DNA from: Cryobacterium sp. Y50
GTDB lineage: Bacteria > Actinomycetota > Actinomycetes > Actinomycetales > Microbacteriaceae
Reading direction: 5' to 3'
Assembly: GCF_002929805.1 (NCBI RefSeq)
Contig: NZ_PJJM01000070.1
Span: forward strand, 1 to 38,786
Length of the DNA stretch: 38,786 nucleotides
The notes under the pieces were generated by a model. The model had not been told where the DNA came from, made no database searches, and worked only from the letters and a program-made list of their open reading frames with translations. Shown here piece by piece: positions 23,979 through 38,786 of this stretch. The first letter of the stretch is position 1; each line of letters begins with the position of its first letter. Made by a program: the position numbers and the translations under genes.

Positions 23979-25472
23979 TCAGAACGGGAAAGCCCCCGGA
24001 ACACGGCGCATCGTGATCCAGCGTGTCTCGGTGAATGCCTCGATGTTCGCCTCGGCACCGCCCTGCCGCGATCCGGTGCCCGACGCGCCAACCCCGCCAA
24101 ACGGGGCATTCGCCTCGTCGTTCACGGTCTGGTCGTTGATGTGCACGATGCCCGAAGGAATACGCTGCGCCAACTCAAGCCCGCGCATGGCATCCGACGT
24201 CACGATCCCGAGGGACAGGCCGTATTCGCTCGCGCTCGCCAGATGCACTGCCTCGTCGTCAGTGCTGAACTTCACAACAGAGGCAACGGGTCCGAAGACC
24301 TCTTCGCAGTAGGCTGGACCGTCCAACGGCGAGTTCGCCAGCACGGTCGGGCGGTAGAACAAGCCGTAATAGCTGCCGCCGGCCTTCAACTCTGCGCCCG
24401 CCTCGACGGAGTCCGTGACCAGTCGGTGAATCCGGTCGCGCTGGTTCTCGTCGATGATCGGGCCGAGATGGACCTGGTCGGTCGCCGGGTTGCCCACCGC
24501 CATCGACTCAGCCTTCGCGGCAAGCTTTTCGACATACTGGTCGAAGATGCTCTCATGCACGATGTGGCGTCCGATCGACATACAGATCTGACCCTGATGC
24601 AGGAAGGAACCCCACGCCGCGAGGTTGACGGCCTTGTCGACATCGGCGTCTTCGAGCACGATGAAGGCCGAGTTGCCCCCGAGTTCGAGGTGAGCGCGCT
24701 TGAGGTGCTTGCCGGCGAGTTCGCCAACCGCTCTGCCTGCTTTGGTCGAGCCGGTGAAGGCGATAACCCGGATGTTGGGGTCGGTTACCATCGCCTCGCC
24801 GACGTCGGCGCCTCCCGTGACCAACTGCAACACCCCGGCCGGCAGCCCGGCCTCCTCGAAGACGCGCACCATCATCACACCGCCGGTCACCGCGGTACGA
24901 GGGTCGGGCTTGAGTACGACCGCATTGCCGAGTGCGAGAGCGGGGGCCACAGCTCGGATTCCCAGGATGATCGGAACGTTGAACGGTGAAACTACACCGA
25001 CGACCCCGGCCGGAACCCGCTGGGCGATAGAGATTCTGGGTTCTTCGCTCGAGAGGAGCTGGCCGAGCGGATGCGACGGCAGCGCTGCCGCCTCGTAGCA
25101 TTCCTGGGCACCGACGTGCAGTGCGAACCCTGCAAAGCCCGGCACGCTGCCGGCTTCCCTCACGTTCCAGTCCATGATCTCGTCGGCATGTTTTTCCATG
25201 AGCGCTGCCGCCTTGCGCAGCACTCCGGCGCGCACGGGGGGCGGGGTCGCCGCCCATGCCTTCTGGGCAGCTGCTGCGCCGGCGGCGGCCACGGCTACGT
25301 CCGCCAGCGTCGCAATTCCTACGCGGCCCAACTCGTGCCCGGTCGCCGGTTCGATGACCGGGATATCGCCGCCGGCTCCCACCGTCCACTCGCCGTTGAT
25401 GTAGATCTTTCCAGACCAGGCTGCCGGATCGAGAAACAGGTCGGTCGTCGTGTCGTCAGTCGTGAGAGTCAT
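23979..25472 (-). CDS. Benzaldehyde dehydrogenase-like NAD(P)+ aldehyde dehydrogenase
   Basis: A complete 497-aa aldehyde dehydrogenase. Catalytic and binding residues are in place: Asn165 in SPFNVP, Lys188 in LKPDPRT, GSTKAG (241-246), Glu263 in LELGGNS and nucleophile Cys297 in HQGQICMSIGRH. The VPAGVVGVVSPFNVPIIL and LKPDPRTAVTGGVM stretches and the C-terminal MRRVPGAFPF are typical of XylC-type benzaldehyde/vanillin-group enzymes. It is the last gene of the operon with the benzoylformate-decarboxylase-like enzyme, whose product would be its substrate. Oxidation would give benzoate or 4-hydroxybenzoate; the latter would feed pobA. GAGGAAG precedes the ATG. A 114-base gap separates it from the decarboxylase gene. 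Confidence 0.92.
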   Translation of the reverse strand: MTLTTDDTTTDLFLDPAAWSGKIYINGEWTVGAGGDIPVIEPATGHELGRVGIATLADVAVAAAGAAAAQKAWAATPPPVRAGVLRKAAALMEKHADEIMDWNVREAGSVPGFAGFALHVGAQECYEAAALPSHPLGQLLSSEEPRISIAQRVPAGVVGVVSPFNVPIILGIRAVAPALALGNAVVLKPDPRTAVTGGVMMVRVFEEAGLPAGVLQLVTGGADVGEAMVTDPNIRVIAFTGSTKAGRAVGELAGKHLKRAHLELGGNSAFIVLEDADVDKAVNLAAWGSFLHQGQICMSIGRHIVHESIFDQYVEKLAAKAESMAVGNPATDQVHLGPIIDENQRDRIHRLVTDSVEAGAELKAGGSYYGLFYRPTVLANSPLDGPAYCEEVFGPVASVVKFSTDDEAVHLASASEYGLSLGIVTSDAMRGLELAQRIPSGIVHINDQTVNDEANAPFGGVGASGTGSRQGGAEANIEAFTETRWITMRRVPGAFPF

Positions 25473-25586
25473 TGTCTCTTCTTCCTCGTTTTGTTGGGAT
25501 TACTTTTAGGTATGTTCAGATCAGGAGATGTTCTGACACACCGGTGGCGCATACTTTTCGTCGAGCGCCGCCTGGGTCAGACCTAT

Positions 25587-27218
25587 TCAGGGCTGGAACA
25601 GCACATCCGGCGTGACGGTCACTTCAAGGACCAGAGCTTCCTGACGGCCCGCCAGAGACGGTGCGACGCGGTCCAAGACCGTCACCAGTTCGGCGTAATC
25701 GTCTATTTTCAGCGCTTCCACGCCCAACCCCGCTGCGATGGCAGAAACGGAGACTCCGCCGAAGGACGGCCACGGAGCCGCGCCACCGCGTTGGTCGGCC
25801 AGACGGTTCATCACGGCATAGCCGCCGTTATTCAGGACGATGAAGACGACCCCAACCCCGAGATTTGCGGCCGTCCACAGCGACTGAATTGAGTACATCG
25901 ACGAACCATCGCCGATGATGCCAATGACCGGGCGGTTCGGCTGGGCCATCTTCAGCCCGATGGCAGCCGGCATGGCGAACCCGAGCCCACCCATCGCCGC
26001 AGATAGGAAGCCAAACGGCCGACGGGCCGGAATGAGTGCCTCCAGGGCCGGGCGTGAGGAGGGGGATTCCTCAACCACGGTCGTCTCTATCGGAAGGCGT
26101 TCTGCGAGAAGCTGAAAAACGTGTGCCGCTCGCAGGGGCTCGTCGGCGACGTGGGGAGCCAGCTGGTAGGTCTCGGCGTGACGCTTCACGTGGTCGGACG
26201 CCTGTCCCGCGGGCAGCGGGCTGCGAACTCCGAGCTGGGTGCTGATGGACGAGCACAGGGTGGCAGGGTCGCCAATGATGGAGAGTTCGGCGGGCGACCG
26301 GTTCGCCTCCGCGGCATCCGCGGTCACGACGAAGACCCTCATGCCGTCCGGCACAAGTGAACCGGGCTTGTACGGGTACTGGCGCAGGGCTGCGGTACCG
26401 ACCACGAGGAGAACGTCGTGGTCCTGGAGGGCTTCCCGGACGCGGGGGCGGTCGGCGGGGAGGCTGCCGCGGAACAGCGGATGGTCCTGCGGGAAGCCCG
26501 CCCGGGAACCGAACGCCTCCTGCCATACCGGGGCCTGCAGACTTTCTGCGAGCTGCACCAGAGCTGCCCAGCCTGGCTCACTGTCGTTGCCCGAGCCGGC
26601 GATGATTGCGGGAGCGGCCGCTTCGCGGAGCGCGGCGACGACGTCCTCGAGCTCCGTCGGGATCCCGCGCGGAGCCGATACGCTGCCGCTCGCGGCTGCC
26701 GTTGCGGTCGGATCTGCCGGCTCATCCCAGTCGTCCATCGGGACGATCACGATGACCGGCCCGCTTTCCTGGCGCGCGAGGTGTGTCGCCCGTCGAATGG
26801 CCGACGGTACGTCGGCGGCGATGACGGGCGAGATTACGTCCAGCGGATAATCTCCCGCGAGCCCGGCAAGCCGTCCGGCGAGGAAGGGCTCGAGTGCGAG
26901 GTGCCGTCGGTCCTGCTGGCCGATGACGACCACCATGGGCGCGCGGTTGACGCGCGCCGTTGCTATCGCCCCGACCGCATTGCCGAAGCCCGCCGTCGTG
27001 TGGAGGAGCACGAAGGCCGGCGAGCCGCTACCGAGCGCGTGGCCGGCAGCGATGCCGACCACCGATCCCTCGTGTAGCGCGAGAACAAACCGGATGTCTT
27101 TAGGCAGATCCACGAGGAACGGGATTTCCGTTGAGCCGGGGTTCGAGAAGATCGTGGTGAGGCCTTCGGCGCGCATGACGTCGAAACAGGCGTCCCGCAC
27201 GGTGGCGGCAGCACTCAT
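25587..27218 (-). CDS. Benzoylformate decarboxylase-like ThDP enzyme
   Basis: A 543-aa ThDP enzyme that by homology decarboxylates benzoylformate (phenylglyoxylate) to benzaldehyde. The N-terminal FSNPGSTEIPFL gives Ser29 (MdlC Ser26), LALHEGSVVGIA gives Glu50 (MdlC Glu47) and LLHTTAGFGN gives His73 (MdlC His70). The cofactor motif GDGSSMYSIQSLWTA...LNNGGY is intact. At the place of the second MdlC histidine, His281 in RYHQYDPG, this protein has Tyr in RQYPYKPG, so activity or substrate may differ. The start overlaps the ABC ATPase stop (ATGA). Its place between an importer and an aldehyde dehydrogenase supports a phenylglyoxylate or 4-hydroxyphenylglyoxylate substrate. Confidence 0.87.
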   Translation of the reverse strand: MSAAATVRDACFDVMRAEGLTTIFSNPGSTEIPFLVDLPKDIRFVLALHEGSVVGIAAGHALGSGSPAFVLLHTTAGFGNAVGAIATARVNRAPMVVVIGQQDRRHLALEPFLAGRLAGLAGDYPLDVISPVIAADVPSAIRRATHLARQESGPVIVIVPMDDWDEPADPTATAAASGSVSAPRGIPTELEDVVAALREAAAPAIIAGSGNDSEPGWAALVQLAESLQAPVWQEAFGSRAGFPQDHPLFRGSLPADRPRVREALQDHDVLLVVGTAALRQYPYKPGSLVPDGMRVFVVTADAAEANRSPAELSIIGDPATLCSSISTQLGVRSPLPAGQASDHVKRHAETYQLAPHVADEPLRAAHVFQLLAERLPIETTVVEESPSSRPALEALIPARRPFGFLSAAMGGLGFAMPAAIGLKMAQPNRPVIGIIGDGSSMYSIQSLWTAANLGVGVVFIVLNNGGYAVMNRLADQRGGAAPWPSFGGVSVSAIAAGLGVEALKIDDYAELVTVLDRVAPSLAGRQEALVLEVTVTPDVLFQP

Positions 27219-28090
27219 GATTTGTGGCCCTTCTTCGTTGCCGGGATCGGCCCGGAAAGGGTACGGCTCTTCGCCAGCTGGATCTGCTCGTAGACGTGCC
27301 CGCGCAACTCGTTGAAGCGAGCGCTCGACCGGGTGGTGAGTTGGTCGCGATCAACCGGAAGGTCGATCGTCAGATCTTCCTGAACGACCGTTGGTGAATT
27401 CGACAGCACAAGCACCCGTTCGCCCAAGTAGACCGATTCGTCGATGTCGTGCGTGATGAAGATGATCGTCACGCCGAGCTTCTGCCAGATGTGGCGAACT
27501 AAGTCCTCCAGATCGGCCCTGGTCTGGGCGTCCACGGCGGCGAACGGCTCATCCATCAGCAAGACCTCTGGCCGGTACGCCACCGCTCGCGCGATCGCGA
27601 CACGTTGCTGCATTCCGCCGGACAGCTGCCAGGGATAGCTATCCGGCACGTGAGACAACTCGACGGCGGCGAGGGCGTCATCCACGAGCTTCGTGCGTTC
27701 GGCGCGTGGGATGCGCTGGTTCTTCAGCGGCAACTCGATGTTGGCGCGAACGCTCATCCACGGCAGAAGGCTGCGACCGTACTCCTGGAAGACGACGGCC
27801 ATGGAATGAGGCGGCCCGACGACCTTAGTGCCGCGTAGTTCGATCGACCCCGATGTCGGGGCCAGTAGCCCGGCGATGCACTTCAGCAGAGTCGTCTTGC
27901 CCGCGCCGGAAGGTCCGACCACGCAGACCAGCTGACCGGGCGCGATATCGAAGGTGAGGTCGCGCACGGCTTCGATCTCGCCGCCTGGCACGGGATAGAC
28001 CTTTCGCAGTCCCTTCACCGACAGCATCGGGGGCTCCGAGGCTGAGTTGTCCGGGATGCGCTCGCCATCATTGAGTACGTTAACTGGCAT
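27215..28090 (-). CDS. ABC transporter ATP-binding protein, SsuB/TauB type
   Basis: A 291-aa ATPase of the nitrate/sulfonate/taurine importer class. Walker A is GPSGAGKTT (59-67), the Q-loop is FQEYGRSLLPWMSV, the signature is LSGGMQQR, Walker B is VLLMDEPFAAVD and the switch His is in FITHDIDES. The first 20 residues before MLSVKGLRKVYPV are not part of the fold, so a start at the Met in this motif is possible. It overlaps the downstream decarboxylase gene by 4 bases and the upstream permease by 11, so transporter and enzyme are made together. Sulfonate transport is not implied; this class also carries aromatic acids. Confidence 0.93.
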   Translation of the reverse strand: MPVNVLNDGERIPDNSASEPPMLSVKGLRKVYPVPGGEIEAVRDLTFDIAPGQLVCVVGPSGAGKTTLLKCIAGLLAPTSGSIELRGTKVVGPPHSMAVVFQEYGRSLLPWMSVRANIELPLKNQRIPRAERTKLVDDALAAVELSHVPDSYPWQLSGGMQQRVAIARAVAYRPEVLLMDEPFAAVDAQTRADLEDLVRHIWQKLGVTIIFITHDIDESVYLGERVLVLSNSPTVVQEDLTIDLPVDRDQLTTRSSARFNELRGHVYEQIQLAKSRTLSGPIPATKKGHKS

Positions 28091-28853
28091 GCTGAACCTC
28101 TTTCAGGCCGGAGTACCATTTCAGCAACCGGTTTTCGATCGACTTGGAAATCACGGAGAGCGCAAGGCCCAGCAGGCCGAGGACGACGATCCCACTCCAC
28201 ATCTCTGGAATGGCGAACGCACGTTGGAACAGCACGATGGTGAACCCCAGTCCGGAGGAAGATCCGAACATTTCAGAGATGACCATCAGGATTAGTGCGA
28301 TGGACGTGCTCTGCCTCACCCCGGTCATGATCTGGGGGCTAGCCCCCGGCAGTACCAGATGCCGCAACCGGACAAACCCGGTTATCGAGTACGTCCGGAA
28401 GGTATCGCTGAGCACGGGGTCGACGGCTCGCACGCCTTCAATGGTGTTCAGCAGCACCGGCCAGATCGCGCCGGAGATGATCACGATGATTTTCATCTGG
28501 TCGTTGATCCCGACCAGCAGCATGAGCAGTGGAACGAGTACTGGCGGAGGAATCGCGCGGAAGAATTCCAGCATCGGCTCGGTGAGGCTGCGGAGCCAGC
28601 GCACTGAGCCGATAAGCACGCCGAAGACAACACCCAACAGGATGGTCAAACCGAGTCCGACCAACAAACGAAGGACGCTGGGCACGAAATCCGTTAAGAA
28701 CCTCTCCCCGGCCCAGACTGCCCAGAACGTTTGCAGGAGTTCGAGCGGCTTGGGCACGAAGAAGTTAGTGGCCCCGAGTGTCAGGACCCACCACAGGGCG
28801 ATCAGAAGTACGGGCAGGCCGAGGAAATGGAGTACGCGCTTGGGGTATCTCAT
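28080..28853 (-). CDS. ABC transporter permease 1, SsuC/TauC type
   Basis: A 257-aa permease with about six membrane segments and the binding-protein-dependent transport domain. The EAA-like loop is FRTYSITGFVRLRHLVLPGASPQ, and the LEFFRAIPPPVLVPLLMLL segment is typical of SsuC-like permeases. Its start overlaps the end of the second permease by 4 bases (ATGA) and its end overlaps the ATPase gene. Two different permeases in one operon suggest a heterodimeric channel. Confidence 0.92.
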   Translation of the reverse strand: MRYPKRVLHFLGLPVLLIALWWVLTLGATNFFVPKPLELLQTFWAVWAGERFLTDFVPSVLRLLVGLGLTILLGVVFGVLIGSVRWLRSLTEPMLEFFRAIPPPVLVPLLMLLVGINDQMKIIVIISGAIWPVLLNTIEGVRAVDPVLSDTFRTYSITGFVRLRHLVLPGASPQIMTGVRQSTSIALILMVISEMFGSSSGLGFTIVLFQRAFAIPEMWSGIVVLGLLGLALSVISKSIENRLLKWYSGLKEVQHAS

Positions 28854-29632
28854 GTTGTAGCCTCTCCGCGAACCGATGTGTGCCAGGTCAAGACGCGTTT
28901 TTCAACCAAGCGCACCACGGTATTGATGAGAACGCCGATAAGGCCGGTCGCGACGATGAGCGCGTACATTTCGGCGACAGCGCCTCCGGACTGGGTCAGT
29001 GCGATCTGTTGGCCGAGGCCCGGGGTGCCGATGACCAGTTCGGCCGTAATCGCCAGAATCAGCGCGACTGCAGATGCCAGCCGGATCCCGGTTATGAGGT
29101 ACGGGAGCGTCGTCGGCCACACGACGTATCGGATCCGAGCCATTCGTCCTAAGCCGTAGCTGCGGGCCGTGTTGTCGGCGACAGGGTCGACATCGGCCAC
29201 TCCGGAAAGCACCTGGAGCAGCACCTGCCAAAATGACGCGTAGACGATCAGCAGCAGTGAAGATTCGATCTTCAGTCCGAACAGGAGAACCGCCAGCGGG
29301 ATCAAGGCGACGGAGGGGATGGGCCGAAGAAATTCGATGGTCGAGCGGGTGGCTCGGCGGAGAAAAAGACTGGAGCCGATGAGAAGACCGAGCACGCTGG
29401 CCGCGATGATCGAAATCGCGAGGCCCAGCGTCCAGGCTGTCATCGTGTGGGCGACACTGCCCCAGAAACCGGGCTGAAACAGATAGCCGAAGAATTTCGC
29501 CATGACCAGGCTGGCCGGTGGCAGGTATCGCTCATTGACCAGGCCGAGCCGTGGAATTGCCTCCCAGGTGACAAGGAATAGCAGGATGCCCGCAGCCCCC
29601 AGCGCGGGGCCGTTCAGGTGTTTCATTGACAT
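28850..29632 (-). CDS. ABC transporter permease 2, SsuC/TauC type
   Basis: About 260 aa with six membrane segments; the typical IEFLRPIPSVALIPLAVLLFG motif and EAA-like loop ARSYGLGRMARIRYVVWPTTLPY are present. The frame opens at ATG 29647, but GAGGA is better spaced for the ATG at 29632; 29626 is also in frame. It is a paralogue of the permease at 28080 and probably pairs with it. The substrate-binding protein gene ends about 54 bases upstream. Confidence 0.92.
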   Translation of the reverse strand: MSMKHLNGPALGAAGILLFLVTWEAIPRLGLVNERYLPPASLVMAKFFGYLFQPGFWGSVAHTMTAWTLGLAISIIAASVLGLLIGSSLFLRRATRSTIEFLRPIPSVALIPLAVLLFGLKIESSLLLIVYASFWQVLLQVLSGVADVDPVADNTARSYGLGRMARIRYVVWPTTLPYLITGIRLASAVALILAITAELVIGTPGLGQQIALTQSGGAVAEMYALIVATGLIGVLINTVVRLVEKRVLTWHTSVRGEATT

Positions 29633-29685
29633 TCTGCTGTTCCTCATCCGTTCGCAGTGCGCTCTGATACCGATGTGATGGTGCG

Positions 29686-30642
29686 CTACGGCAGCATCAC
29701 GCCAAGGTCAGGCGCTGCCGACAGAGTTCCGAACCTGACGGCTGCATCGCCGAGCTTCGTGGCTGCGTCGACGTTGAAGTCAACCCGGAACTCCGGCAGG
29801 ACCATGTCCGTGAGCTGATCGGCCGTCATCTTCGTGTATGTGGTCACGATCTGGCGCACCTCGTCGGGGTTGGCTTGGGCGTACTCGAGGGACTTGTTCA
29901 TCGCGGTTTGGAACTTCGTCACGAGGTCAGGATCGTTGCTGATGGTGTCGCCATTCGCGAAATAGCCAGCGATATCGAGGTTGGTGTCGAACGCCGAGAA
30001 GTTGTACGAAATTACTCGGGCGCCGTTGGCGACTGCAGAGTCGAGGAAAGGAGCAAGAATCCAGGCCGCATCGACCTGGCTGTTCTCTACTGCTGCCTCG
30101 GCATCCGGAAAGCCGACTTCAACGAATTGGATGCCTGAGGAGTCTCCGCCGTCGTCCTCAACGATCTGACGGATCGTCGTGTCGCCGATATTCTGCAGAT
30201 TGTTGACGGAAACGGTCTTCCCGGCGAGGTCTGCGGCCGACATGATCGGGGAATCCCCGGGAACGATGACCGCTCCGAAGTCGGGCGAGCCGGCCGTCGA
30301 GTTGCCGTTGGCGACATAGCGGAGGTCGAGGCCCTGGTCTCTGGCCACCATGACCGAGACCAGGTTGCCGAATGCGAATTCATAGTCGCCCGAGACCACG
30401 CCAGGGACGGCGGCGGCGCCGCCGGTGGTGACCTGGACGGTGAGGTCAAGGCCCTCGGCGGAGAAGAAGCCCTTTTCCTTGCCGAGCCAAATCGGTGCGG
30501 TGTCGACTATGGGAATGACGCCCACGGTGACGGGGGTGAGTGCGTCGCTTTTGGCTGGTGCAGTGGTGTCGGCACCGGCTGAACAGGCGCTGAGGGCGAT
30601 GACGGATGCCGCGGCAAGTCCGATCATGAGTATTTTCTTCAT
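29686..30642 (-). CDS. ABC transporter substrate-binding lipoprotein, NMT1/SsuA-like
   Basis: A 318-aa lipoprotein with lipobox LSAC (Cys20) and an NMT1/THI5-like periplasmic-binding fold: VGVIPIVDTAPIWLGKEKGF, GLDLTVQVTTGGAAAVPGVVSGDYEFAFGN and AAVENSQVDAAWILAPF. It is the first gene of the leftward operon. Family members bind sulfonates, nitrate, pyrimidine precursors and aromatic acids such as phthalate. The co-transcribed benzoylformate-decarboxylase-like and benzaldehyde-dehydrogenase-like genes make an aromatic 2-oxo acid the most plausible ligand. An IclR gene is divergent from it, with a palindrome at 30778 within the shared 183-base control region. Confidence 0.92.
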   Translation of the reverse strand: MKKILMIGLAAASVIALSACSAGADTTAPAKSDALTPVTVGVIPIVDTAPIWLGKEKGFFSAEGLDLTVQVTTGGAAAVPGVVSGDYEFAFGNLVSVMVARDQGLDLRYVANGNSTAGSPDFGAVIVPGDSPIMSAADLAGKTVSVNNLQNIGDTTIRQIVEDDGGDSSGIQFVEVGFPDAEAAVENSQVDAAWILAPFLDSAVANGARVISYNFSAFDTNLDIAGYFANGDTISNDPDLVTKFQTAMNKSLEYAQANPDEVRQIVTTYTKMTADQLTDMVLPEFRVDFNVDAATKLGDAAVRFGTLSAAPDLGVMLP

Positions 30643-30777
30643 GTCACTCCATTGTGTTGTCGTGCAGGTAGTACTTCTGTGGCGGGGCGAGACTCAGTCT
30701 TTGGCAACGTCAATTGTTGAAAAGATCGATTGGGTGTCATCGGAGACTAGCCATCCTCATCGGCGGTTAAATAGTTG

Positions 30778-30794: not shown

Positions 30795-30825
30795 TTCTGG
30801 TCGGATCGATGTAGCGTGTGGACTA

Positions 30826-31686
30826 ATGAGCGGCAAACCAGCATTGAAGCGCACGGTCGGTGCCGATGCGGGCGGAAATAGCGACGCTGGCAGCAGCGCA
30901 GCCGGAACGATTGCGCCCGTCGACGACCGTTCCGTCGCGGCCAGACTCTTCGCCATTCTCGATGCGTTTGCAGCGCCAGCCGGGGCGACGTCGCGCACCC
31001 TGACCCTGACGACCATCGCCCAGCGCGCTGGCCTGCCGCTCTCCACCACGCATCGTCTCGTCGCCGAGTGGGTGAGCTGGGGCGGCCTGAGCAAGCACGA
31101 GAATGGGCAGTACTCCCTCGGCATGAAGCTGTGGGAGCTCGGGGTGCAAACGCCGACCGCCCGAAACCTGCGCACGATCGCGCTGCCCTACCTGGAAGAC
31201 CTGTATGAGACGACGCGGGAACACGTGCACCTCGCCATCCTCGACGGGCGCGACGCACTGTATCTGGAGAAGCTCTCGGGCCACCACGCGGTTCGCTTGA
31301 TCTCGCGGGTCGGCGCTCGCCTACCGCTGCACTCGACCGGGGTGGGGCTGGTGCTGCTGGCGTACGCTCCGACGGACGTGGTGCAGCAGTATCTCGCTGC
31401 GAGCCTGGAACGCTTTCTGCCGCGCACGGTCACCGAGCCAGAGGCGGTACGCCAGCGGTTGGCCGAGATCCGGCTGCTCGGCCTGGCCCGCATGTCGGAG
31501 GAGATGACGGCAGGGTCGAGCTCGATTGCCGCGCCCATTCGTGACCGCACCGGCCAGGTCGTGGCGGCCGTGTCGATCGTCACTCGCACGACCGACACCG
31601 TCGACCCTGAGCAGGAGAGAGCGGTACGACTGGCCGCGCAGGGCGTCAGCCGGGCTCTCGGCTATCGGCGTGCCCAACAGTCGTGA
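30826..31686 (+). CDS. IclR-family regulator of the pobA/pca genes (PobR/PcaR-like)
   Basis: A 286-aa IclR protein. The N-terminal winged helix includes RLFAILDAF, TLTTIAQRAGLPLSTTHRLVAEW and the wing GGLSKHENGQYSLGMKLWELG. The effector domain has TREHVHLAILDGRDALYLEKL, RVGARLPLHSTGVGLVLLAY and a C-terminal AAVSIV segment. The family includes PcaR and PobR, which control protocatechuate and 4-hydroxybenzoate genes in response to pathway intermediates. It lies between the divergent importer operon and pobA, with like palindromes on both sides. I prefer the ATG at 30826; the frame stays open to 30775 but that would run through the operator. No strong Shine-Dalgarno is visible. Confidence 0.9.
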   Translation: MSGKPALKRTVGADAGGNSDAGSSAAGTIAPVDDRSVAARLFAILDAFAAPAGATSRTLTLTTIAQRAGLPLSTTHRLVAEWVSWGGLSKHENGQYSLGMKLWELGVQTPTARNLRTIALPYLEDLYETTREHVHLAILDGRDALYLEKLSGHHAVRLISRVGARLPLHSTGVGLVLLAYAPTDVVQQYLAASLERFLPRTVTEPEAVRQRLAEIRLLGLARMSEEMTAGSSSIAAPIRDRTGQVVAAVSIVTRTTDTVDPEQERAVRLAAQGVSRALGYRRAQQS

Positions 31687-31706
31687 ACAATGGCAGATTG
31701 TCGACA

Positions 31707-31723: not shown

Positions 31724-31795
31724 AAGGGCATCGGACCCCTGACCGGTACAGCACACTGAAGACAACACACCCTGTCATCGTCGCTAGGAGAACCT

Positions 31796-32977
31796 GTGCC
31801 CCACGAAAACACTCGCGTCGCCATCATCGGCGCCGGTCCCGCCGGTCTCTTGCTGGGCTGGGCCCTGCGTGACGCCGGAATCGACTCGATCGTCGTGGAA
31901 AATCGTTCGCAGGAGTACGTGCTTAGCCGCATCCGTGCCGGTGTTTTGGAACACGGGTCGGTCGAAACCCTGACCCGGCTCGGACTAGGCGACCGCCTCG
32001 CATCCGAGGGCCTGCAGCACGACGGAATCTTTCTGCAATATGCCGGAGAGCGCCACAATGTGAACTTTAACGAGCTGATCGGCCGCACGGTCACCGTGTA
32101 CGGACAGCAACAGGTCGTCAAAGACCTCGTCACCGCGCACACCGACGCCGGATCGACGATCTATTACGAAGCCTCCGAGGTCGCCGCCCTCGGCCTGACC
32201 ACCAAGAACCCGAGCGTAACTTTTGTGCATGATGGCGAAACGCACACCATTAACGCTGACTTCGTTGTGGGCGCCGACGGTTTTCACGGCATCTGCCGGG
32301 CGTCGATTCCGGCCGATGAGATCACCCTGTTCGATCGCAGCTACCCCTACGCCTGGCTCGGTATCCTGGCCGACGTTGCACCCTCCTCGGACGAGCTCAT
32401 CTATTCTCTGCACGAAGACGGTTTCGCGATGCTCTCGATGCGTTCGCCGGTCGTCTCCCGCCTCTACCTGCAGGTCGACCCGGCCGACGATATCAAGAAC
32501 TGGTCCGACAAGCGCATCTGGGAGGCGCTGCACACCCGGCTGGGTACCCCCGGCTGGACCCTGAACGAAGGCCCGATCACCGACAAATCGATCACCCCGA
32601 TGCGCAGCTTTGTGGCTTCACGCCTGGCCTACGGCAACCTGTTTCTGGTCGGCGACGCCGGCCACATCGTGCCGCCCACCGGTGCGAAGGGTCTCAACTC
32701 GGCCATCTCCGACGTCACCCAGCTCGCGAGCGCGCTCACCGCGTTCTACGCCAACGACGAGACGCTTCTGGCCGGCTACAGCGACACCGCGCTGGCGCGG
32801 CAGTGGCGGGTGCAGCAGTTCTCCCGTTGGATGACCGAGATGCTGCACACGAGCCCCGGCGACCTGCAGTCCGGCGCTTTCGACTACCGCAGCCAGCTCG
32901 GCCAGCTCGACTACGTCACCCATTCGCCGCTCGCCCAGCGCATGCTCGCCGAGCAGTACACCGGCCTCCTGCTCTAA
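31796..32977 (+). CDS. pobA: 4-hydroxybenzoate 3-monooxygenase
   Basis: A 393-aa class A FAD monooxygenase that hydroxylates 4-hydroxybenzoate to protocatechuate with NAD(P)H and O2. Motifs are the N-terminal Rossmann loop IIGAGPAGLLLG, the NAD(P)H/FAD-linked DG motif (VVGADGFHGICR) and the FAD ribityl motif GDAGHIVPPTGAKGLN. The SRIRAGVLEHG stretch near residue 45 is characteristic of PobA. The start is GTG with AGGAGA at ideal distance. It leads the rightward pca genes, and pcaH begins 16 bases downstream. Confidence 0.96.
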   Translation: MPHENTRVAIIGAGPAGLLLGWALRDAGIDSIVVENRSQEYVLSRIRAGVLEHGSVETLTRLGLGDRLASEGLQHDGIFLQYAGERHNVNFNELIGRTVTVYGQQQVVKDLVTAHTDAGSTIYYEASEVAALGLTTKNPSVTFVHDGETHTINADFVVGADGFHGICRASIPADEITLFDRSYPYAWLGILADVAPSSDELIYSLHEDGFAMLSMRSPVVSRLYLQVDPADDIKNWSDKRIWEALHTRLGTPGWTLNEGPITDKSITPMRSFVASRLAYGNLFLVGDAGHIVPPTGAKGLNSAISDVTQLASALTAFYANDETLLAGYSDTALARQWRVQQFSRWMTEMLHTSPGDLQSGAFDYRSQLGQLDYVTHSPLAQRMLAEQYTGLLL

Positions 32978-32993
32978 TCGATACGAGGACACC

Positions 32994-33794
32994 ATGACTC
33001 AGACATCCCCGCGCGCCGGCACCGGCGCGGCAAGCCAGGACGATATCACCGCCGAGATCGAAGCGATCGAAGCGGATGCCGCAGCCCGCGTCGCCGCCGG
33101 CGGCTCGCCCGAGCGCCAGCCGCGCCGCGACTACGCCCCGTACCGCAGTTCCGTGCTGCGCCACCCCACCCACGAGCTCGTGCGCGTCGACCCGGAAGAG
33201 GTCGAACGGGTCTCACCCGCCTTCGGCCACACCGACGTGAACAGCCTGGAGAGCGACCTCACCATTCAACACTCCGGCGAGCCGATCGGTGAACGGATCA
33301 CCGTTGGCGGCCGGGTGCTCGACGGCGAGGGCCGCCCGGTGCGACACCAGCTGATCGAACTCTGGCAGGCTAATGCCGGCGGACGCTACGTGCACAAGCG
33401 CGATCAGCATCCGGCACCGCTCGACCCCAATTTCACCGGAGTCGGCCGTGCTATCACCGGTGAGAACGGTGAGTACTCGTTCACCACGATCAAACCAGGA
33501 CCATACCCGTGGAAAAATCACGTCAATGCGTGGCGACCCGCCCATATCCACTTTTCCCTGTTCGGCACCGCGTTCACGCAGCGTCTGATCACCCAGATGT
33601 ATTTTCCGGGCGACCCGCTGTTCGCGCTCGACCCGATCTACCAGTCGATTGCCTCAGCTGATGCCCGCGCCCGCCTGGTCGGGCAGTACGACCACAGCCT
33701 GAGCGTGCCCGAATTCTCGCTCGGCTACACCTGGGATATCGTGCTCACCGGACCCAAATCCACTTGGATGGAAAGCGAAGAAGCCCATGACTGA
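32994..33794 (+). CDS. pcaH: Protocatechuate 3,4-dioxygenase beta subunit
   Basis: A 266-aa beta subunit of the iron(III) intradiol dioxygenase that opens protocatechuate to 3-carboxy-cis,cis-muconate. The four iron ligands are visible: Tyr132 in GGRYVHKRDQHPAPLDPNF, Tyr171 in KPGPYPWKN, and His184 and His186 in WRPAHIHF. The first 40 or so residues, rich in Ala and Glu, extend beyond typical PcaH. The 3' end (STWMESEEAHD) is repeated 67 bases downstream. The stop overlaps the start of a 24-codon ORF made by that duplication. Confidence 0.96.
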   Translation: MTQTSPRAGTGAASQDDITAEIEAIEADAAARVAAGGSPERQPRRDYAPYRSSVLRHPTHELVRVDPEEVERVSPAFGHTDVNSLESDLTIQHSGEPIGERITVGGRVLDGEGRPVRHQLIELWQANAGGRYVHKRDQHPAPLDPNFTGVGRAITGENGEYSFTTIKPGPYPWKNHVNAWRPAHIHFSLFGTAFTQRLITQMYFPGDPLFALDPIYQSIASADARARLVGQYDHSLSVPEFSLGYTWDIVLTGPKSTWMESEEAHD

Positions 33795-33864
33795 CCTCGT
33801 GCGCACCGGATCGATCCCAAGAGTATCCACTTGGATGGAAAGCGAAGAAGCCCATGACTGACCT
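33758..33864. repeat. 40-bp direct duplication at the pcaH/pcaG junction
   Basis: The 40 bases 33758-33797, which start ATCCACTTGGATGG and end in CATGACTGACCT, recur at 33825-33864. The period is 67 bp. Each copy contains the end of pcaH and the ATGACTGA that joins pcaH to pcaG. The ancestral arrangement was probably a single 8-base stop/start overlap. Confidence 0.95.
33787..33861 (+). CDS. 24-aa ORF bridging pcaH and pcaG
   Basis: The duplicated junction creates an ORF that starts with ATG inside the pcaH stop overlap (ATGACTGA) and ends with TGA inside the pcaG start overlap. The peptide begins MTDL like PcaG and ends WMESEEAHD like PcaH. A GAAGAAG precedes each ATG. Ribosomes ending pcaH could restart on this ORF and then restart on pcaG, so coupling may be retained. 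Whether it is translated is unknown, and the peptide itself is unlikely to have a function. Confidence 0.5.
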   Translation: MTDLVRTGSIPRVSTWMESEEAHD

Positions 33865-34468
33865 TGCCGCAGTAGCTGTCGCCGTGCAGACCACCACCCC
33901 GCAGAGGCATGCTCTGCAGACCCCGTCGCAGACGATCGGTCCGTTCTACGGCTATGCCCTGCCCTTTGAGGGCGGGCCGGACCTGGTCCCCGGGTATCAT
34001 TCCCGTGCCATCCGCTTTCATGGCACCGTCACTGACGGCGCTGGCGAGCCGATTCTCGACGCCCTGCTTGAGATCTGGCAGGCCGACGAGAGCGGCGTGC
34101 TCAGCCGCGAACTCGGCAGCATCGACCGCGACGGTTTTACCTTCACCGGCTTCGGTCGCTGTGCGACCACGATCGCCGGCAATTACACCTTCACGACGCT
34201 CAAGCCCGGCGCGGCCGGCACGGCAGCGCCCTACATTCTCGTGACGGTGTTTGCTCGTGGAGTCACCCACCACCTGTTCACCCGGGCTTACTTCGCTGAG
34301 GACTCCGCGCTGCACGCGACCGACGCCGTGCTCAGCAGCCTGCCGGTCGACCGCCGGAACACGCTCATCTGCGTGTCGGAGGGAATCGTCGGTGGAGCCG
34401 AGTCCTACCGCTTCGATATTCGCGTGCAGGGCGAGAACGAAACGGTGTTCCTGAACTTCGATGACTAA
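33854..34468 (+). CDS. pcaG: Protocatechuate 3,4-dioxygenase alpha subunit
   Basis: A 204-aa alpha subunit of the dioxygenase. It shares the intradiol fold with PcaH: TPSQTIGPFYGYALPFEGG near the start, GAGEPILDALLEIWQAD, GRCATTIAGNYTFTTLKPG and VTVFARGVTHHLFTRAYF. It lacks the complete Tyr/Tyr/His/His iron set, as is normal for alpha subunits. It follows pcaH after 59 bases that contain the duplicated junction. Its end overlaps pcaB by 8 bases. A GAAGAAG precedes the ATG. Confidence 0.95.
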   Translation: MTDLAAVAVAVQTTTPQRHALQTPSQTIGPFYGYALPFEGGPDLVPGYHSRAIRFHGTVTDGAGEPILDALLEIWQADESGVLSRELGSIDRDGFTFTGFGRCATTIAGNYTFTTLKPGAAGTAAPYILVTVFARGVTHHLFTRAYFAEDSALHATDAVLSSLPVDRRNTLICVSEGIVGGAESYRFDIRVQGENETVFLNFDD

Positions 34469-35927
34469 CTTCAGTTTTGATGTCGGGCTGCTCAACCCGC
34501 TCAGCCACGGCACTCGGGAGTCCGAGCTGACCAGTGACCAGGCCTGGCTGCAGGCGATGGTCGACGCCGAGCTTGCGCTCACGCGGGCGCTTGTCGACGC
34601 CGAACTTGCCCCCGAGTGGATGTTCGCGGTCTGCGACGCGCTCGCGGATGCGAGCCAATTCGACCTCGGTGCGATCGCCATCGAGGCCAGGGGCGGCGGC
34701 AACCCGGTGATTCCGTTCGTGAAACATCTCGGCCGCGCCGCCGAACGGGTGCGGGCCGGAGCATCCGACCATATTCACGTCGGTGCGACCAGCCAGGATA
34801 TCCTCGACACGGCCGCGATGATCGTGGCCCGCCGGGTGGCCTGTGAAGTCATTGACCAGCTCGATTTCTTCGGCGGGACGCTCGCCGACCTCGCCGAGAA
34901 ACATCGCGGCACCGTGATGAGCGGTCGTACCCTCGGCCAGCAGGCGTCACCGACGAGTTTCGGCTTCGTCGCGGCTGGCTGGCTCGACGCCGTGCTGCTC
35001 ATCGTCGCCCGCCTGGATGGCATTCGCGACACCCTGCCCGTGCAACTCGGCGGCGCGGTCGGCAACCTCGCCGTACTCACCGAAATCGCCAGGGCCCGGC
35101 GCGGCGAAGTCGATGCCGCCGCGGCACTGGACACGGTCATGGACCGGTTCGCCCACCACGTCGGCTTAATCGTGCCGCGCCTCAGCTGGCACACCAACCG
35201 GGTCGTCATCTCCGAACTCGCCTCCGTGCTGGCCGCAGCGGCCGGTGTCGCTGGCACCTTCGCCCTTGACATGTCAGTGCTGTCTCGCACCGAAATTGCC
35301 GAGGTCAGCGAACGCCTCGCCCCCGGCGAGGGTGGATCCAGCGCCATGCCGCACAAACGCAATCCGGTGTCGTCCGTGCTGATCACGGCGGCTGCGCTGC
35401 AGACGCCAGGACTTGCATCCACTCTCTATGGCAGCATGCTGGCCGAAGACCAGCGTCCGAGCGGGGCCTGGCATGCCGAATGGCAGTCGTTGCGGGTGCT
35501 CGAACGGCTCACGATTTCAGCCGTTACCGGTGCCGCGTCGCTCGCCGCTCGCCTCGCCGTTGACCCGGATCGCATGCGTGCCAACCTCGACCTCACCGAC
35601 GGACTCGTGTTCAGCGAGCGAGTCACCACGATTTTGGCCGAAACTGTCGGTAAAACCACCGCCTTCGCGCTGGTCGAGCGTGCTTCGCAGGAAGCATTTG
35701 CCACCAACCGGCCGCTGCAGGTGGTGCTGGCGAGCATTCTGATTGCCGAGGGCTGTTCCGACGCCCTGCGTGCGCAGATCTGGGCGGCCTTCAGCTATGA
35801 GGGCCAGCAGGGTCAGTCCGCGGCGGGTATCGACCGCGTCGTGCGCAGCTTTCGTCAGCGAATGGATGCCGTTCGACCAGACGATTCCGTCGACGTGAAT
35901 GCCAATGCACTCTCGAACAACCGTTAA
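34461..35927 (+). CDS. pcaB: 3-carboxy-cis,cis-muconate cycloisomerase
   Basis: A 488-aa member of the fumarase/aspartase superfamily that cyclises 3-carboxy-cis,cis-muconate to 4-carboxymuconolactone. The superfamily signature is EGGSSAMPHKRNPVSS near residue 295; HVGATSQDILDTAA and RTLGQQASPTSFG mark the earlier conserved regions. Length is slightly above the usual 450. It overlaps pcaG by 8 bases, and pcaL begins 7 bases after its stop, so it is inside the pca operon. Confidence 0.95.
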   Translation: MTNFSFDVGLLNPLSHGTRESELTSDQAWLQAMVDAELALTRALVDAELAPEWMFAVCDALADASQFDLGAIAIEARGGGNPVIPFVKHLGRAAERVRAGASDHIHVGATSQDILDTAAMIVARRVACEVIDQLDFFGGTLADLAEKHRGTVMSGRTLGQQASPTSFGFVAAGWLDAVLLIVARLDGIRDTLPVQLGGAVGNLAVLTEIARARRGEVDAAAALDTVMDRFAHHVGLIVPRLSWHTNRVVISELASVLAAAAGVAGTFALDMSVLSRTEIAEVSERLAPGEGGSSAMPHKRNPVSSVLITAAALQTPGLASTLYGSMLAEDQRPSGAWHAEWQSLRVLERLTISAVTGAASLAARLAVDPDRMRANLDLTDGLVFSERVTTILAETVGKTTAFALVERASQEAFATNRPLQVVLASILIAEGCSDALRAQIWAAFSYEGQQGQSAAGIDRVVRSFRQRMDAVRPDDSVDVNANALSNNR

Positions 35928-35934
35928 GGATCTC

Positions 35935-37197
35935 ATGAGCCAGCCCGTCATTCTCTGCACCATCGAGCCGGCGGCGACCGGCGAGGTCAACGCGCCGCTC
36001 ATTGTTCTCGGCCCCTCGCTCGGCACCACGGCCGACCTCTGGGCGAGCGTCGTGCCGACGCTCGCGGCCACCCACCGGGTGCTTCGCTTCAATCTGCCCG
36101 GGCACGGTTTCAGTCTTCGTGCGACGGCATCGTTCACGATCGAGGAGCTCGCCGACGCCGTCGTCGGCCTGGTCGACTCCATTGGCGTCGACAGCTTTCA
36201 CTACGCCGGAATCTCGCTCGGCGGTGCCATCGGCCTCGCCTTGGCCGTGAACCACCCGAGCCGCCTGACCAGCCTCGCGATGTTCTGCTCCGGCGCTAAA
36301 ATCGGCACGAGCGAGGCCTGGACCGAGCGGGCCGCCGCCGTGCGCGCGAGCGGTACCCCCTCGCTCATCGCCGGCAGCGCCGCCCGCTGGTTTGCCCCCG
36401 ACTTTCTTGGCCGTGACCCCATAGCCGGTTCTCATGCGCTCGATCAGCTGCTCGACATCGACGACGAATCCTATGCACTCGCCTGCGAGGCGCTCGCTAT
36501 TTTCGATCAAACGGATGCCCTCGGCGGCATCCGCACGTCCGTTCTGTGCGTGTCGGGTGAACTCGATACGGTGACTCCGACCGTGCAGTTGCAAGAGCTG
36601 GCGGCGCACATTCCCGCCGCCCGGGCCGTGGAGATCGCCGGGGTCGCGCACCTGCCGGCACTCGAGCAGCCGATTGAGGTTGGCGCGCTGCTGGGGGAGT
36701 GGGTCGCCCAGGCTTCGGCTGGATTAGGTCGGGGCGGTGCAACGGTGCCTGCCGCGCCGCGACCGGCCGAGCTGCCTTGTCCTGACCGCACCGCGGCATC
36801 CGTTTACGATGACGGCATGCACGTGCGTCGCGCGGTCCTCGGCGATAAGCACGTCGACGCGGCCACCGCAGCTATCACCCCCGAAACCGCCGTGTTTCAG
36901 GACTTCATCACCCGCTATGCCTGGGGCGAAGTGTGGACACGACCGGGGCTCGACCGCCGTATCCGTAGCTTCTTGACCATCGCCGCTCTCGTGACCGGCG
37001 GGCATGAAGGCGAGCTCGCGATGCACGTGCGCGCAGCCCTGACCAACGGGCTGAGCCGGGCCGAGATCAGCGAAGCCATTCTGCACACCGCCATCTATGC
37101 AGGCGTTCCCGCGGCCAACGCCGCATTTGCCGTAGCCCGCGATACCTTTGCCGGGCTCGATGCGGCTGCTCAAGATTCCACTATTCGGCCAAGCTAA
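35935..37197 (+). CDS. pcaL: Fused 3-oxoadipate enol-lactonase / 4-carboxymuconolactone decarboxylase
   Basis: A 420-aa fusion of two pathway steps. Residues 1 to about 265 form an alpha/beta hydrolase, PcaD, with nucleophile Ser94 in YAGISLGGAIG and a late His in IAGVAHLPALEQP. Residues about 300-415 form the PcaC carboxymuconolactone decarboxylase domain, with ITRYAWGEVWTRPGLDRRIRS split across its core and GHEGELAMHVRAALTNG. A Pro/Ala-rich linker joins them. Fusions of this sort, called PcaL, are known in actinomycetes. The ATG at 35935 has AAGGA 5 bases upstream; an earlier in-frame start would overlap pcaB. Confidence 0.95.
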   Translation: MSQPVILCTIEPAATGEVNAPLIVLGPSLGTTADLWASVVPTLAATHRVLRFNLPGHGFSLRATASFTIEELADAVVGLVDSIGVDSFHYAGISLGGAIGLALAVNHPSRLTSLAMFCSGAKIGTSEAWTERAAAVRASGTPSLIAGSAARWFAPDFLGRDPIAGSHALDQLLDIDDESYALACEALAIFDQTDALGGIRTSVLCVSGELDTVTPTVQLQELAAHIPAARAVEIAGVAHLPALEQPIEVGALLGEWVAQASAGLGRGGATVPAAPRPAELPCPDRTAASVYDDGMHVRRAVLGDKHVDAATAAITPETAVFQDFITRYAWGEVWTRPGLDRRIRSFLTIAALVTGGHEGELAMHVRAALTNGLSRAEISEAILHTAIYAGVPAANAAFAVARDTFAGLDAAAQDSTIRPS

Positions 37198-37210
37198 AGG
37201 ACTACGAACC

Positions 37211-38005
37211 ATGGACAAAACCTATCCCTCCGCCGCGGCCGCCGTCGCTGACATTCCCGACGGGGCCTCGCTGGCCGTCGGTGGCTTCGGTCTGGTCGGC
37301 GTGCCGATCGTGCTCATTCGCGCGCTGCTCGCGCTCGGCAGCACCAACCTGTACGTCGCCTCGAACAACTGCGGTGTCGACGGCTGGGGGCTTGGTGAAC
37401 TGCTCCGCGAGGGGCGCATCAGCCGGGTGATCGCCTCTTATATCGGCGAGAACAAGGATTTCGCTCGCCGTTACCTCGGTGGTGAACTTGAGGTTGAACT
37501 CACCCCGCAGGGTACCCTGGCCGAGCGGTTACGAGCCGGCGGCACCGGAATTCCGGCATTCTTCACCGCGAGTGGCGTTGGCACCATGGTCGCCGATGGA
37601 GGCCTGCCGTGGCGCTACGGCCCCGACGGTGAGGTGACCGTGTCTTCGCCGCCGAAGGAAACGCGGCGCTTCTCTTCGCTGGGCGGTGAGAAGGAGTACG
37701 TGCTCGAAGAGGCCATCGTCACCGACTATGCCCTGGTGCGTGCTGCCAAGGGCGACCGGCACGGCAACCTGGTGTTCGAGAAATCAGCCCGCAACTTCAA
37801 TCCGGTCGCCGGCATGGCCGGCCGCATCACCATCGCCGAGGTTGACGAGCTGGTCGAACCGGGCCAGATAGACCCGGACGCGGTGCACCTCGCCGGCATT
37901 TATGTGAACCGCATCGTGCAGCTCGGCGCGGTGGACGCCGCCGAACTGCCGATCGAGAAGATGACGACTCGGCCGCGGCCTTCGTCTGAAATTGGAGCGA
38001 ACTGA
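37211..38005 (+). CDS. pcaI: 3-oxoadipate CoA-transferase subunit A
   Basis: A 264-aa family I CoA-transferase alpha subunit that with PcaJ makes 3-oxoadipyl-CoA from 3-oxoadipate and succinyl-CoA. It has [52 protein letters not shown] and [19 protein letters not shown]. Compared with the copy at 5791 it has an extra segment ([17 protein letters not shown]) in the middle that is typical of 3-oxoadipate transferases. AAAGGA precedes the ATG. It overlaps pcaJ by one base (TGATG). Confidence 0.93.
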
Positions 38006-38679
38006 TGACTCTCACGCGCAACGAGATGGCGGCCCGCGCCGCTCAGGAACTAGCCCCCGATTCATATGTCAATTTGGGCATCGGCCTGCCGACGCTCATT
38101 CCAAACTTTCTGCCCGACGGTGTGCACGTGGTGCTGCACTCCGAAAACGGGGTGCTCGGTGTCGGACCCTACCCGTGGGAGGGTGAGGCCGACCCCAAGC
38201 TCATCAACGCCGGCAAGGAAACCGTCACCGTCAACCCTGGCGCCGCCTACTTCGACTCCGCACAGAGCTTCGGCATGATCCGCGGCGGCCTGATCGACGT
38301 GGCCGTGCTCGGCGCCATGCAGGTGAGCGTCGTCGGTGACATCGCCAACTGGGCGGTGCCCGGCAAGATGATCAAGGGCATGGGCGGCGCGATGGACCTC
38401 GTGCACGGCGCCGACACCGTGATCGTCGTGATGGAACACGTCACCAAGACCGGCGAGTTCAAGATCAAGCAGGTCTGCGACCTGCCCTTGACCGGCAAGG
38501 CCGTCGTGACCCGTATCATCACCGACCTCGCCGTGATCGACGTCACTCCCGAGGGACTCGTGCTGCGCGAGGTCGCGCCCGGCGTGACCGTCGACGAGGT
38601 ACAGGCCGCCACCGAGGCGACCCTGCTGGTACCGACCCCGCCGACCACGATCACGACCCTGCTCGGAGCCGACGAATGA
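38005..38679 (+). CDS. pcaJ: 3-oxoadipate CoA-transferase subunit B
   Basis: A 224-aa beta subunit with catalytic Glu47 in [13 protein letters not shown] and the [16 protein letters not shown] loop. It is a close paralogue of the protein at 6523. Its start overlaps the pcaI stop and its stop overlaps the start of the thiolase gene (ATGA), so pcaI, pcaJ and pcaF are translationally coupled. Confidence 0.94.
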
Positions 38680-38786
38680 GTGAGTTGCGCCAGGTCGTCA
38701 TCTGCGAGCCGCTGCGCACCCCGATCGGCCGGTTCGGCGGCGCCTTCAAAACGGTCGCGCCGTCCGACCTGGCGGCGGCGGTCATC
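38676..38786 (+). CDS. pcaF: 3-oxoadipyl-CoA thiolase, 5' end only
   Basis: The window ends after 37 codons. The visible N-terminus, with [17 protein letters not shown] and then VAPSDLAA, is the thiolase start. In this operon the thiolase should cleave 3-oxoadipyl-CoA to succinyl-CoA and acetyl-CoA, the last step of the pathway. The active-site Cys and His lie beyond the window, so the symbol rests on the operon position. Confidence 0.82.

Follow-up and report, generated by a model that had tools for sequence, protein, structure and literature searches.

The contig NZ_PJJM01000070.1 of Cryobacterium sp. Y50 carries a leftward block of genes for an ATP-binding cassette (ABC) importer, a benzoylformate decarboxylase-like enzyme (BFDC) and an aromatic aldehyde dehydrogenase (ALDH). 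The block faces an IclR-family regulator gene and the pobA-pca genes (Table 1). We analysed the whole contig (C51, 38,786 bp), which is called the window below, and the genome it belongs to (4.40 Mb, 99.5% complete), and gene families were assigned by Pfam and NCBIfam models. Sequence comparison suggests that the block is a cassette that imports and decarboxylates a para-hydroxylated aryl-glyoxylate, with 4-hydroxybenzoylformate as the likeliest substrate, and we put the probability of this reading at about one half. The importer would bring in 4-hydroxybenzoylformate, the BFDC-like enzyme would release CO2 from it to give 4-hydroxybenzaldehyde, and ALDH would oxidise the aldehyde to 4-hydroxybenzoate. 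PobA and the Pca enzymes would then lead through protocatechuate to 3-oxoadipate, and the native IclR protein would control the cassette.

Gene content and closure of the proposed route

The importer has the layout of the NitT/TauT (NMT1/SsuA) type, with an NMT1 substrate-binding lipoprotein (SBP), BPD permeases and an ATPase within one operon. The reading frames of its two permeases (PermA and PermB) overlap by 4 bp, those of PermB and the ATPase by 11 bp, and the stop of the ATPase gene shares 4 bp with the start of the BFDC gene (27215-27218). Cys20 of the SBP, which we read as the putative lipobox cysteine, is unchanged across 34 aligned sequences. The AlphaFold2 model of the SBP (pLDDT 88.2) has the SsuA/NMT1 fold. 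Prediction of the ligand from this structure was dropped, as the structural neighbours bind unrelated ligands (thiamin, pyrroloquinoline quinone, sulfonates and nitrate). Close matches come from other Cryobacterium strains: the SBP is 93% and 92% identical to proteins of TMT1-2-2 and TMT1-66-1, and BFDC is 93% identical to a protein of Cryobacterium sp. TMT1-66-1.

When BFDC was compared with PDB sequences, the top 49 (at least 278 bits) were all named benzoylformate decarboxylase or probable benzoylformate decarboxylase, and the first other match was an acetolactate synthase at 104 bits. Its catalytic residues are kept: S29, E50 and H73 are the equivalents of Ser26, Glu47 and His70 of the P. 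putida enzyme, which we take to be catalytic there. For ALDH, the five best PDB matches were 4-hydroxybenzaldehyde dehydrogenases (9jw2 and others), and the following ones included benzaldehyde, salicylaldehyde and vanillin dehydrogenases. ALDH is also 72-75% identical to Microbacterium proteins, several of which are named benzaldehyde dehydrogenase.

The best PDB matches of PobA were solved 4-hydroxybenzoate hydroxylases (371.6 bits, residues 6-391, end to end). PobA passed the model NF006091 and stayed below the cut-off of TIGR02360 (457 versus 538.7 bits). Arg44, Tyr201, Ser212, Arg214, Arg220, Tyr222 and Tyr385, which we presume to be the substrate and cofactor contacts of 4-hydroxybenzoate hydroxylase, are all matched in the alignment. 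The protocatechuate branch of the beta-ketoadipate pathway is represented in all its parts (pcaH, G, B, D/C, I, J and F), with pcaB assigned by its position and a score below cut-off. For the pcaB-like protein, a nitrosuccinate lyase model outscores the 3-carboxymuconate cycloisomerase models, likewise below its cut-off. An earlier note on this DNA had described a leftward operon facing IclR and pobA-pcaHGBLIJF; reading frames and families lie where it placed them, except that only the start of pcaF, about 37 codons, is present. In a sister genome (locus L176), a longer gene with the same start as the window pcaF sits after pcaJ.

To see which substrates the genome could use, we searched it for other aromatic pathways. 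No BenA was found over the cut-off in the genome (best 102.9 versus 780.95 bits); six control genomes, Corynebacterium glutamicum among them, gave BenA matches, one of which was over the cut-off. VanA was not found by search of the genome. The PcaH and PcaG of the window are its only intradiol dioxygenases, and there is no catechol type. With 4-hydroxybenzoate or protocatechuate as the product of BFDC and ALDH, known genes of this genome could take over, which makes a para-hydroxylated substrate the natural reading. These searches, the 4-hydroxy type of the PobA and ALDH relatives and the recurrence of the cassette near pobA/pca in other lineages (below) support the para-hydroxy condition set in the earlier note: the route is complete only if the ring can be converted to protocatechuate. 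Vanilloylformate is disfavoured as the substrate in this genome because VanA was not found.

No FMN_dh match was found on the contig, in a search that did not extend to mandelate racemase and non-FMN mandelate dehydrogenases. Other contigs of the genome carry one LldD-like flavin mononucleotide (FMN) enzyme below its family cut-off and one MftD. It had been proposed that no mandelate dehydrogenase is present and that the oxo acid itself may be the nutrient. The first part holds for FMN-type enzymes on this contig, but with the LldD-like protein and MftD elsewhere a hydroxy acid may also serve as the nutrient.

Recurrence and co-inheritance of the cassette

BFDCs of this clade are rare. With the own genome included, they were found in 2 of 149 genomes of relatives (E<=1e-100), 5 of 396 of the order (E<=1e-90) and 14 of 394 of the class (E<=1e-120). 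In the samples of 396 and 394, importer, BFDC and ALDH occur together in seven genomes: the own genome (G000), G453, G777, G770, G677, G752 and G601, where the contig starts at the first permease and shows no lipoprotein gene. All seven genomes have PobA and PcaHG, and none has BenA over the cut-off. In six of them the BFDC gene shares its contig with pobA and pcaHG, at a distance of no more than about 17 kb; G601 has these genes on another contig. The genes of G453 stand on one strand in the order pcaHGB-IJ-IclR-SBP-PermA-PermB-ATPase-BFDC-ALDH-pobA, so that pobA ends the operon. In G777 and G770, the order ALDH-importer-BFDC stands beside pcaJI-L-BGH-IclR-pobA. A scan of genome contigs added a block adjoining pcaHG in Arthrobacter castelli (L010) and a 4.4-kb contig with BFDC-ALDH-pcaIJ (L009). 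Two more blocks are less complete: L011 is on a short contig that ends inside BFDC, and the BFDC of L015 is apparently broken. Independent evidence for the link between BFDC and pobA/pca comes from G453, G777, G770, G677, G752, L010 and L009.

The control set consisted of 98 BFDC loci besides the window, 23 at 50% identity or more and 75 below; many are on short contigs, and most of those below 50% belong to other phyla. Of the 23 closer loci, 11 had importer genes close to BFDC, versus 0 of the 75 others; the figures were 7/23 versus 0/75 for pca genes and 3/23 versus 1/75 for pobA. Recurrence of this kind rejects chance or artefact as the source of the gene grouping. ALDH of this type was present in 9 of the 12 importer-linked loci (window included), the exceptions being L011, L012 and L013.

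Two of these exceptions, L012 (5466-11590) and L013 (1-6518), which count among the 11 importer-linked loci, have a distant importer (SBP 35-38%), a BFDC of 51% identity and genes that appear, from the first part of their proteins, to be FAH-type and SDR-like; there, importer and BFDC may be paired for another substrate. At L189, L191 and L192, a lipoprotein of 46-48% identity stands beside BFDC, with no permease or ATPase match in the 20-kb stretch.

The history of the parts was compared by distance correlations over seven cassette loci (L011, L015 and L194 were left out as incomplete). Importer and BFDC distances correlated with r=0.88, a value reached in 10 of 5040 permutations. The overlap between the ATPase and BFDC genes measures 4 bp in the window, L010, L186 and L187 and 8 bp in L095, and a gap of 14-21 bp separates the two genes in L188, L193 and L194; the spacing is not interpretable in L011 (contig end) and L015 (broken BFDC). 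In the importer tree, the window importer pairs with that of the BFDC-linked L011. From the correlations and overlaps, importer and BFDC seem to travel together.

The slot in sister genomes and the weight of other readings

A search of the genus with the lipoprotein matched 12 of 57 genomes, the own genome included. Ten matches at 58-64% identity (L176-L185) were compared, and one at 42% (G035) was left out. All ten sisters have a native-type IclR gene and pobA-pca genes beside a divergent NMT1-type importer, directly facing in 9/10. In L183, importer and IclR are separated by three genes, one of them for an unrelated thiamin diphosphate (ThDP) enzyme, and in L185 other genes part pobA from pcaH. 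By tblastn, the window is 82-89% identical to the sisters in IclR, 83-93% in PobA and 86-95% in PcaH, and 57-63% in SBP, 68-74% in the permeases and 72-75% in the ATPase; PcaB, PcaL, PcaI and PcaJ could be compared with 8 or 9 of the 10 sister loci. No close BFDC or ALDH was found at the loci of the ten sisters (best 24-32%). VanA was over the cut-off in 8 of the 10 sister genomes (partial in G016), and in each of these eight the coordinates place its gene some 1 kb away from that of the importer ATPase; a neighbouring gene, which looks to us like vanB, gave no match to Pfam at 1e-10.

The additional genes of L183 form a pairing of their own. At 10561-13229, between the importer and IclR-pobA, a second NMT1 lipoprotein gene (55%) overlaps by 4 bp the gene of the ThDP enzyme. 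This enzyme of 564 aa is 24% identical to BFDC and matched no NCBIfam model at 1e-60, which makes it another case of a binding protein paired with a ThDP enzyme.

The DNA itself holds clues to how the window came to differ. In an identity profile, where positions 30580-30659 were covered by six sisters and the SBP body by four (L177 and L182 were too short), identity rose from 52-79% across the SBP body to 86-94% at 30580-30659, which is the gene start and its upstream region. It drops between the two genes and over the beginning of IclR; farther into IclR and in pobA, most values are 75-95%. At the left border of the block there are two transposase remnants (phrog_1157), an acyl-CoA dehydrogenase remnant and an amidohydrolase gene interrupted by a stop codon, and positions 23340-23531 are 87% identical to an acyl-CoA dehydrogenase gene located beyond vanA in L177. 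The lower identity of the importer (57-75%) than of IclR and PobA (82-93%), the junction at the SBP start and the broken genes with transposase remnants suggest that a foreign importer-BFDC-ALDH block likely took the place of the native importer, vanA and further genes, that one of its borders falls within the start of the SBP gene, and that the native promoter and signal-peptide region were retained. Alternatively, the old block may have been lost and the new one acquired in two separate events. More tentatively, the block may be a mobile actinobacterial uptake module, in which translational coupling ties a high-affinity ABC importer dedicated to aryl-glyoxylates to a decarboxylase of its own. 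Such modules would be swapped as a whole at an IclR-pobA-pca docking site (vanillate out, 4-hydroxybenzoylformate in) by recombination in the stretch that encodes the SBP signal peptide, which would leave the resident promoter and secretion signal in place.

Several results weigh against 4-hydroxybenzoylformate as the imported substrate. Since the sisters share IclR-pobA-pca without BFDC or ALDH, the adjacency of pobA in the window is inherited within the genus, and it says little about BFDC. The score of BFDC for its best NCBIfam model, benzoylformate decarboxylase NF005485, is 467.9 bits and thus below the cut-off of 493. Its pocket carries six changes: His281 and the ring-pocket residues Thr377, Phe397, Ala460, Leu461 and Phe464, as we assume them for the P. 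putida enzyme and as numbered through alignment to the PDB benzoylformate decarboxylase, are replaced by Tyr, Pro, Ser, Val, Met and Leu. This pattern is common, with small variations, to the clade of at least 50% identity, importer-linked or not, among which no characterised member was found. Pro377, Tyr281 and a non-Phe397 were also seen in more distant relatives, and Met461 with Leu464 distinguishes the clade. A link to 4-hydroxybenzoate does not hold throughout the clade, since G444 and G505 have its BFDC and an ALDH of this type with no importer nearby and no PobA match. Even among the 11 importer-linked loci, just 5 have pca genes within 10.5 kb, several of the contigs being short. Among the seven cassette genomes, VanA was over the cut-off in three (G752, G777 and G770), and a third intradiol dioxygenase occurs in G752, with a weak partial third match in G453. 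ALDH distances followed those of the importer less closely (r=0.56; 77 of 5040 permutations), so its history is partly separate. In the importer tree, the BFDC-less importers of the subfamily nest among the BFDC-linked ones and do not form two clades. Taken with the correlations and overlaps above, ALDH seems to be exchanged more freely, and BFDC seems to have been gained or lost more than once. Unsubstituted benzoylformate, degraded through benzoate and catechol, is disfavoured by the absence of BenA over the cut-off and of a catechol-type intradiol dioxygenase in the genome, a search that did not include the benzoyl-CoA and gentisate routes.

The lipoprotein also had matches in 41 other genomes of the order, and its surroundings were examined in nine (G453, G404, G188, G367, G271, G475, G227, G210 and G398). 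In the seven with a lipoprotein of at least 52% identity, BFDC was nearby only in G453 and pobA/pca only in G453 and G404; the other five had neither within the stretch examined, which again counts against the proposed substrate. The G404 locus (L133, 1-17159) holds the importer with pobA, pcaBGH, a thiolase gene, pcaIJ, SDR and Amidohydro_2 genes and no BFDC match; gene calls there and in the sister loci came from a GC-frame script, by which some genes were missed. These five importers and the VanA of three cassette genomes lower the weight of 4-hydroxybenzoylformate and raise that of another aryl-glyoxylate. Because a related importer stands without close BFDC or ALDH in the sister genomes, the importer subfamily is not diagnostic of an oxo acid, and it may carry aromatic acids in general.

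The main rival is that the importer takes up a simpler aromatic acid with a para-hydroxylated ring (4-hydroxybenzoate, vanillate or a cinnamate), as the BFDC-less relatives in this slot probably do, and that BFDC and ALDH act on an aryl-glyoxylate made in the cell, for example from hydroxymandelate or hydroxyphenylacetate. The ten sisters and G404, which have a related importer and pobA-pca but lack a close BFDC, are consistent with it, as are the vanA gene near the importer in eight sisters, the nested BFDC-less importers and the LldD-like dehydrogenase on another contig. However, importer and BFDC co-vary, and their reading frames overlap in several loci. The window importer also diverges from the genus importer and groups with the BFDC-linked L011, so it seems to have come with the new enzymes. 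We regard import of a simpler acid as doubtful. The earlier note had stressed a dedicated importer tied to the decarboxylase by gene overlap; the overlap between ATPase and BFDC genes is real, but the same importer subfamily occurs in the ten sisters without a close decarboxylase. Likewise, the operon it proposed to look for near pobA recurs near pobA/pca in other actinobacteria but not in these sisters.

An unlikely alternative to 4-hydroxybenzoylformate is a differently decorated aryl-glyoxylate or a wide range of such compounds. 3,4-Dihydroxybenzoylformate, for example, would yield protocatechuate directly by way of its aldehyde and acid, with no need for PobA. This alternative would suit the vanillin and salicylaldehyde dehydrogenases among the solved ALDH relatives, the pocket change of BFDC, which fits altered ring recognition, and the VanA of three cassette genomes. 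Rhodococcus RHA1 is also reported, in the available part of the account, to handle both the 4-hydroxy and the 4-hydroxy-3-methoxy forms (PMC9811514). On the other side, pobA ends the cassette operon of G453 and lies close to the cassette in G777 and G770, and a methoxylated ring needs a demethylase, of which VanA was not found in the own genome. It is very unlikely that the ThDP enzyme has another 2-oxo acid as its substrate or works as a carboligase, with its neighbours there for other reasons. The score below the family cut-off, the six pocket changes and the distant L012 and L013, with FAH-type and SDR genes and without ALDH of this type, could be explained in this way, but the gap in PDB scores before acetolactate synthase and the frequency of ALDH at the importer-linked loci argue for an aryl-glyoxylate.

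Table 1. Features of the window from the left border of the block to the contig end
Feature	Position	Strand	Basis
Left border of cassette: transposase remnants, split amidohydrolase, acyl-CoA dehydrogenase remnant	21405..23648	.	
Aromatic aldehyde dehydrogenase (ALDH)	23979..25472	-	Aldedh 489 bits; predicted 4-hydroxybenzaldehyde to 4-hydroxybenzoate
BFDC-like ThDP decarboxylase, predicted aryl-glyoxylate decarboxylase	25587..27218	-	three TPP domains
ABC importer ATPase	27215..28090	-	ABC_tran
ABC permease B (PermB)	28080..28853	-	BPD_transp_1
ABC permease A (PermA)	28850..29647	-	BPD_transp_1
NMT1/SsuA-type substrate-binding lipoprotein (SBP), first gene of operon	29686..30642	-	NMT1 122 bits
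Probable recombination junction between the native Cryobacterium-type 5' end and the foreign body of the SBP gene	30540..30660	.	DNA identity to sisters
IclR-family regulator, genus-native	30826..31686	+	IclR_C; best model PcaR/PcaU/PobR family, below cut-off
pobA, 4-hydroxybenzoate 3-monooxygenase	31796..32977	+	NF006091 531.7 bits versus cut-off 351
pcaH	32994..33794	+	TIGR02422 over cut-off
pcaG	33854..34468	+	TIGR02423 over cut-off
pcaB-like cycloisomerase	34461..35927	+	3-carboxymuconate cycloisomerase models below cut-off; pca operon position
pcaL (fused PcaD-PcaC)	35899..37197	+	NF051488 487.4 bits versus cut-off 390
pcaI	37148..38005	+	TIGR02429 over cut-off
pcaJ	38005..38679	+	TIGR02428 over cut-off
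pcaF, first ~37 codons, truncated by contig end	38676..38786	+	in-frame thiolase-like start

For the IclR gene, translation more likely starts at ATG 30826 than at TTG 30775. Other parts of the contig hold related gene types. Positions 13415-18760 contain genes of a polar amino-acid-type ABC importer and of an agmatinase-family protein, together with a ThDP enzyme that passes the cut-off for 5-guanidino-2-oxopentanoate decarboxylase. They make up a second set of importer and 2-oxo-acid decarboxylase on the contig, possibly for an arginine-derived oxo acid. In L185, a pair read as agmatinase-like and ThDP enzyme genes adjoins the aromatic importer. At 4600-7173 of the window, a second IclR gene faces a CoA-transferase pair.

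Comparison with known systems

In the mdl mandelate pathway of Pseudomonas putida (BFDC structure 1bfd), an aryl-glyoxylate is decarboxylated and the aldehyde is then oxidised, the same two steps as predicted here. Unlike that pathway, the window contig has no FMN-type mandelate dehydrogenase (the racemase was outside the search), and its genes belong to the protocatechuate and not the catechol branch. The sister loci L176-L185 are alike in the slot, the IclR-pobA-pca genes and the importer subfamily; they differ in having no close BFDC or ALDH, importer proteins of 57-75% identity and usually vanA. Sisters and window together are a natural experiment, in which the same regulator and ring-cleavage genes meet two upstream modules, and ligand specificity can be compared pairwise.

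A 4-hydroxybenzoylformate cluster of Rhodococcus jostii RHA1 and P. fluorescens Pf-5 was reportedly described by Wei et al. in 2019. The cluster is cited in PMC9811514, PMC10167727, PMC11288888 and PMC7760541. According to the available parts of the first two, RHA1 degrades 4-hydroxybenzoylformate and its 3-methoxy form via benzoylformate decarboxylase and vdh, and its cluster has an FMN glycolate oxidase. As far as these accounts go, the RHA1/Pf-5 cluster resembles the window in having a ThDP decarboxylase of 4-hydroxybenzoylformate, for the window a predicted substrate, and an aromatic aldehyde dehydrogenase that leads to 4-hydroxybenzoate. It differs in the FMN glycolate oxidase of RHA1, to which no FMN_dh match on the window contig corresponds, and in the ABC importer of the window, which the parts available leave unmentioned. 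Two Rhodococcus plasmid BFDCs are 36-37% identical to the window BFDC, and no importer is listed near the annotated one in an incomplete gene table. Stretches of Rhodococcus USK10 and Nonomuraea from the plasmid collection carried no annotated features.

Pseudomonas sp. LLC-1 is described, in the part of PMC7760541 available, as using benzoylformate itself via bzfRABCD, with a major facilitator superfamily (MFS) transporter and no mandelate genes. Both systems thus join a BFDC, an aldehyde dehydrogenase and a transporter without mandelate genes. In LLC-1, however, an MFS transporter and a porin stand in place of the ABC importer, LysR in place of IclR, van genes flank the cluster, and a pobA-pca link is not mentioned in that part.

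Aryl-glyoxylates are reported as possible lignin-derived C2 fragments, and the available parts of the same papers say little about their uptake by bacteria (PMC9811514, PMC11288888). No published description of an ABC importer paired with BFDC was found in a search mainly at the level of titles and abstract openings. The BFDC-coupled importer is a concrete candidate for this uptake. Overall, the observation in the earlier note was confirmed and its interpretation is supported in part, because the adjacency of pobA in the window is genus-inherited and the importer subfamily also occurs without a close decarboxylase. The pathway idea had already been published, to judge from the available accounts of RHA1 and Pf-5. 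The 4-hydroxybenzoylformate route and the idea of the oxo acid as nutrient are already known; the BFDC-coupled ABC importer, its link to IclR-pobA-pca and the likely swap at a conserved slot are new.

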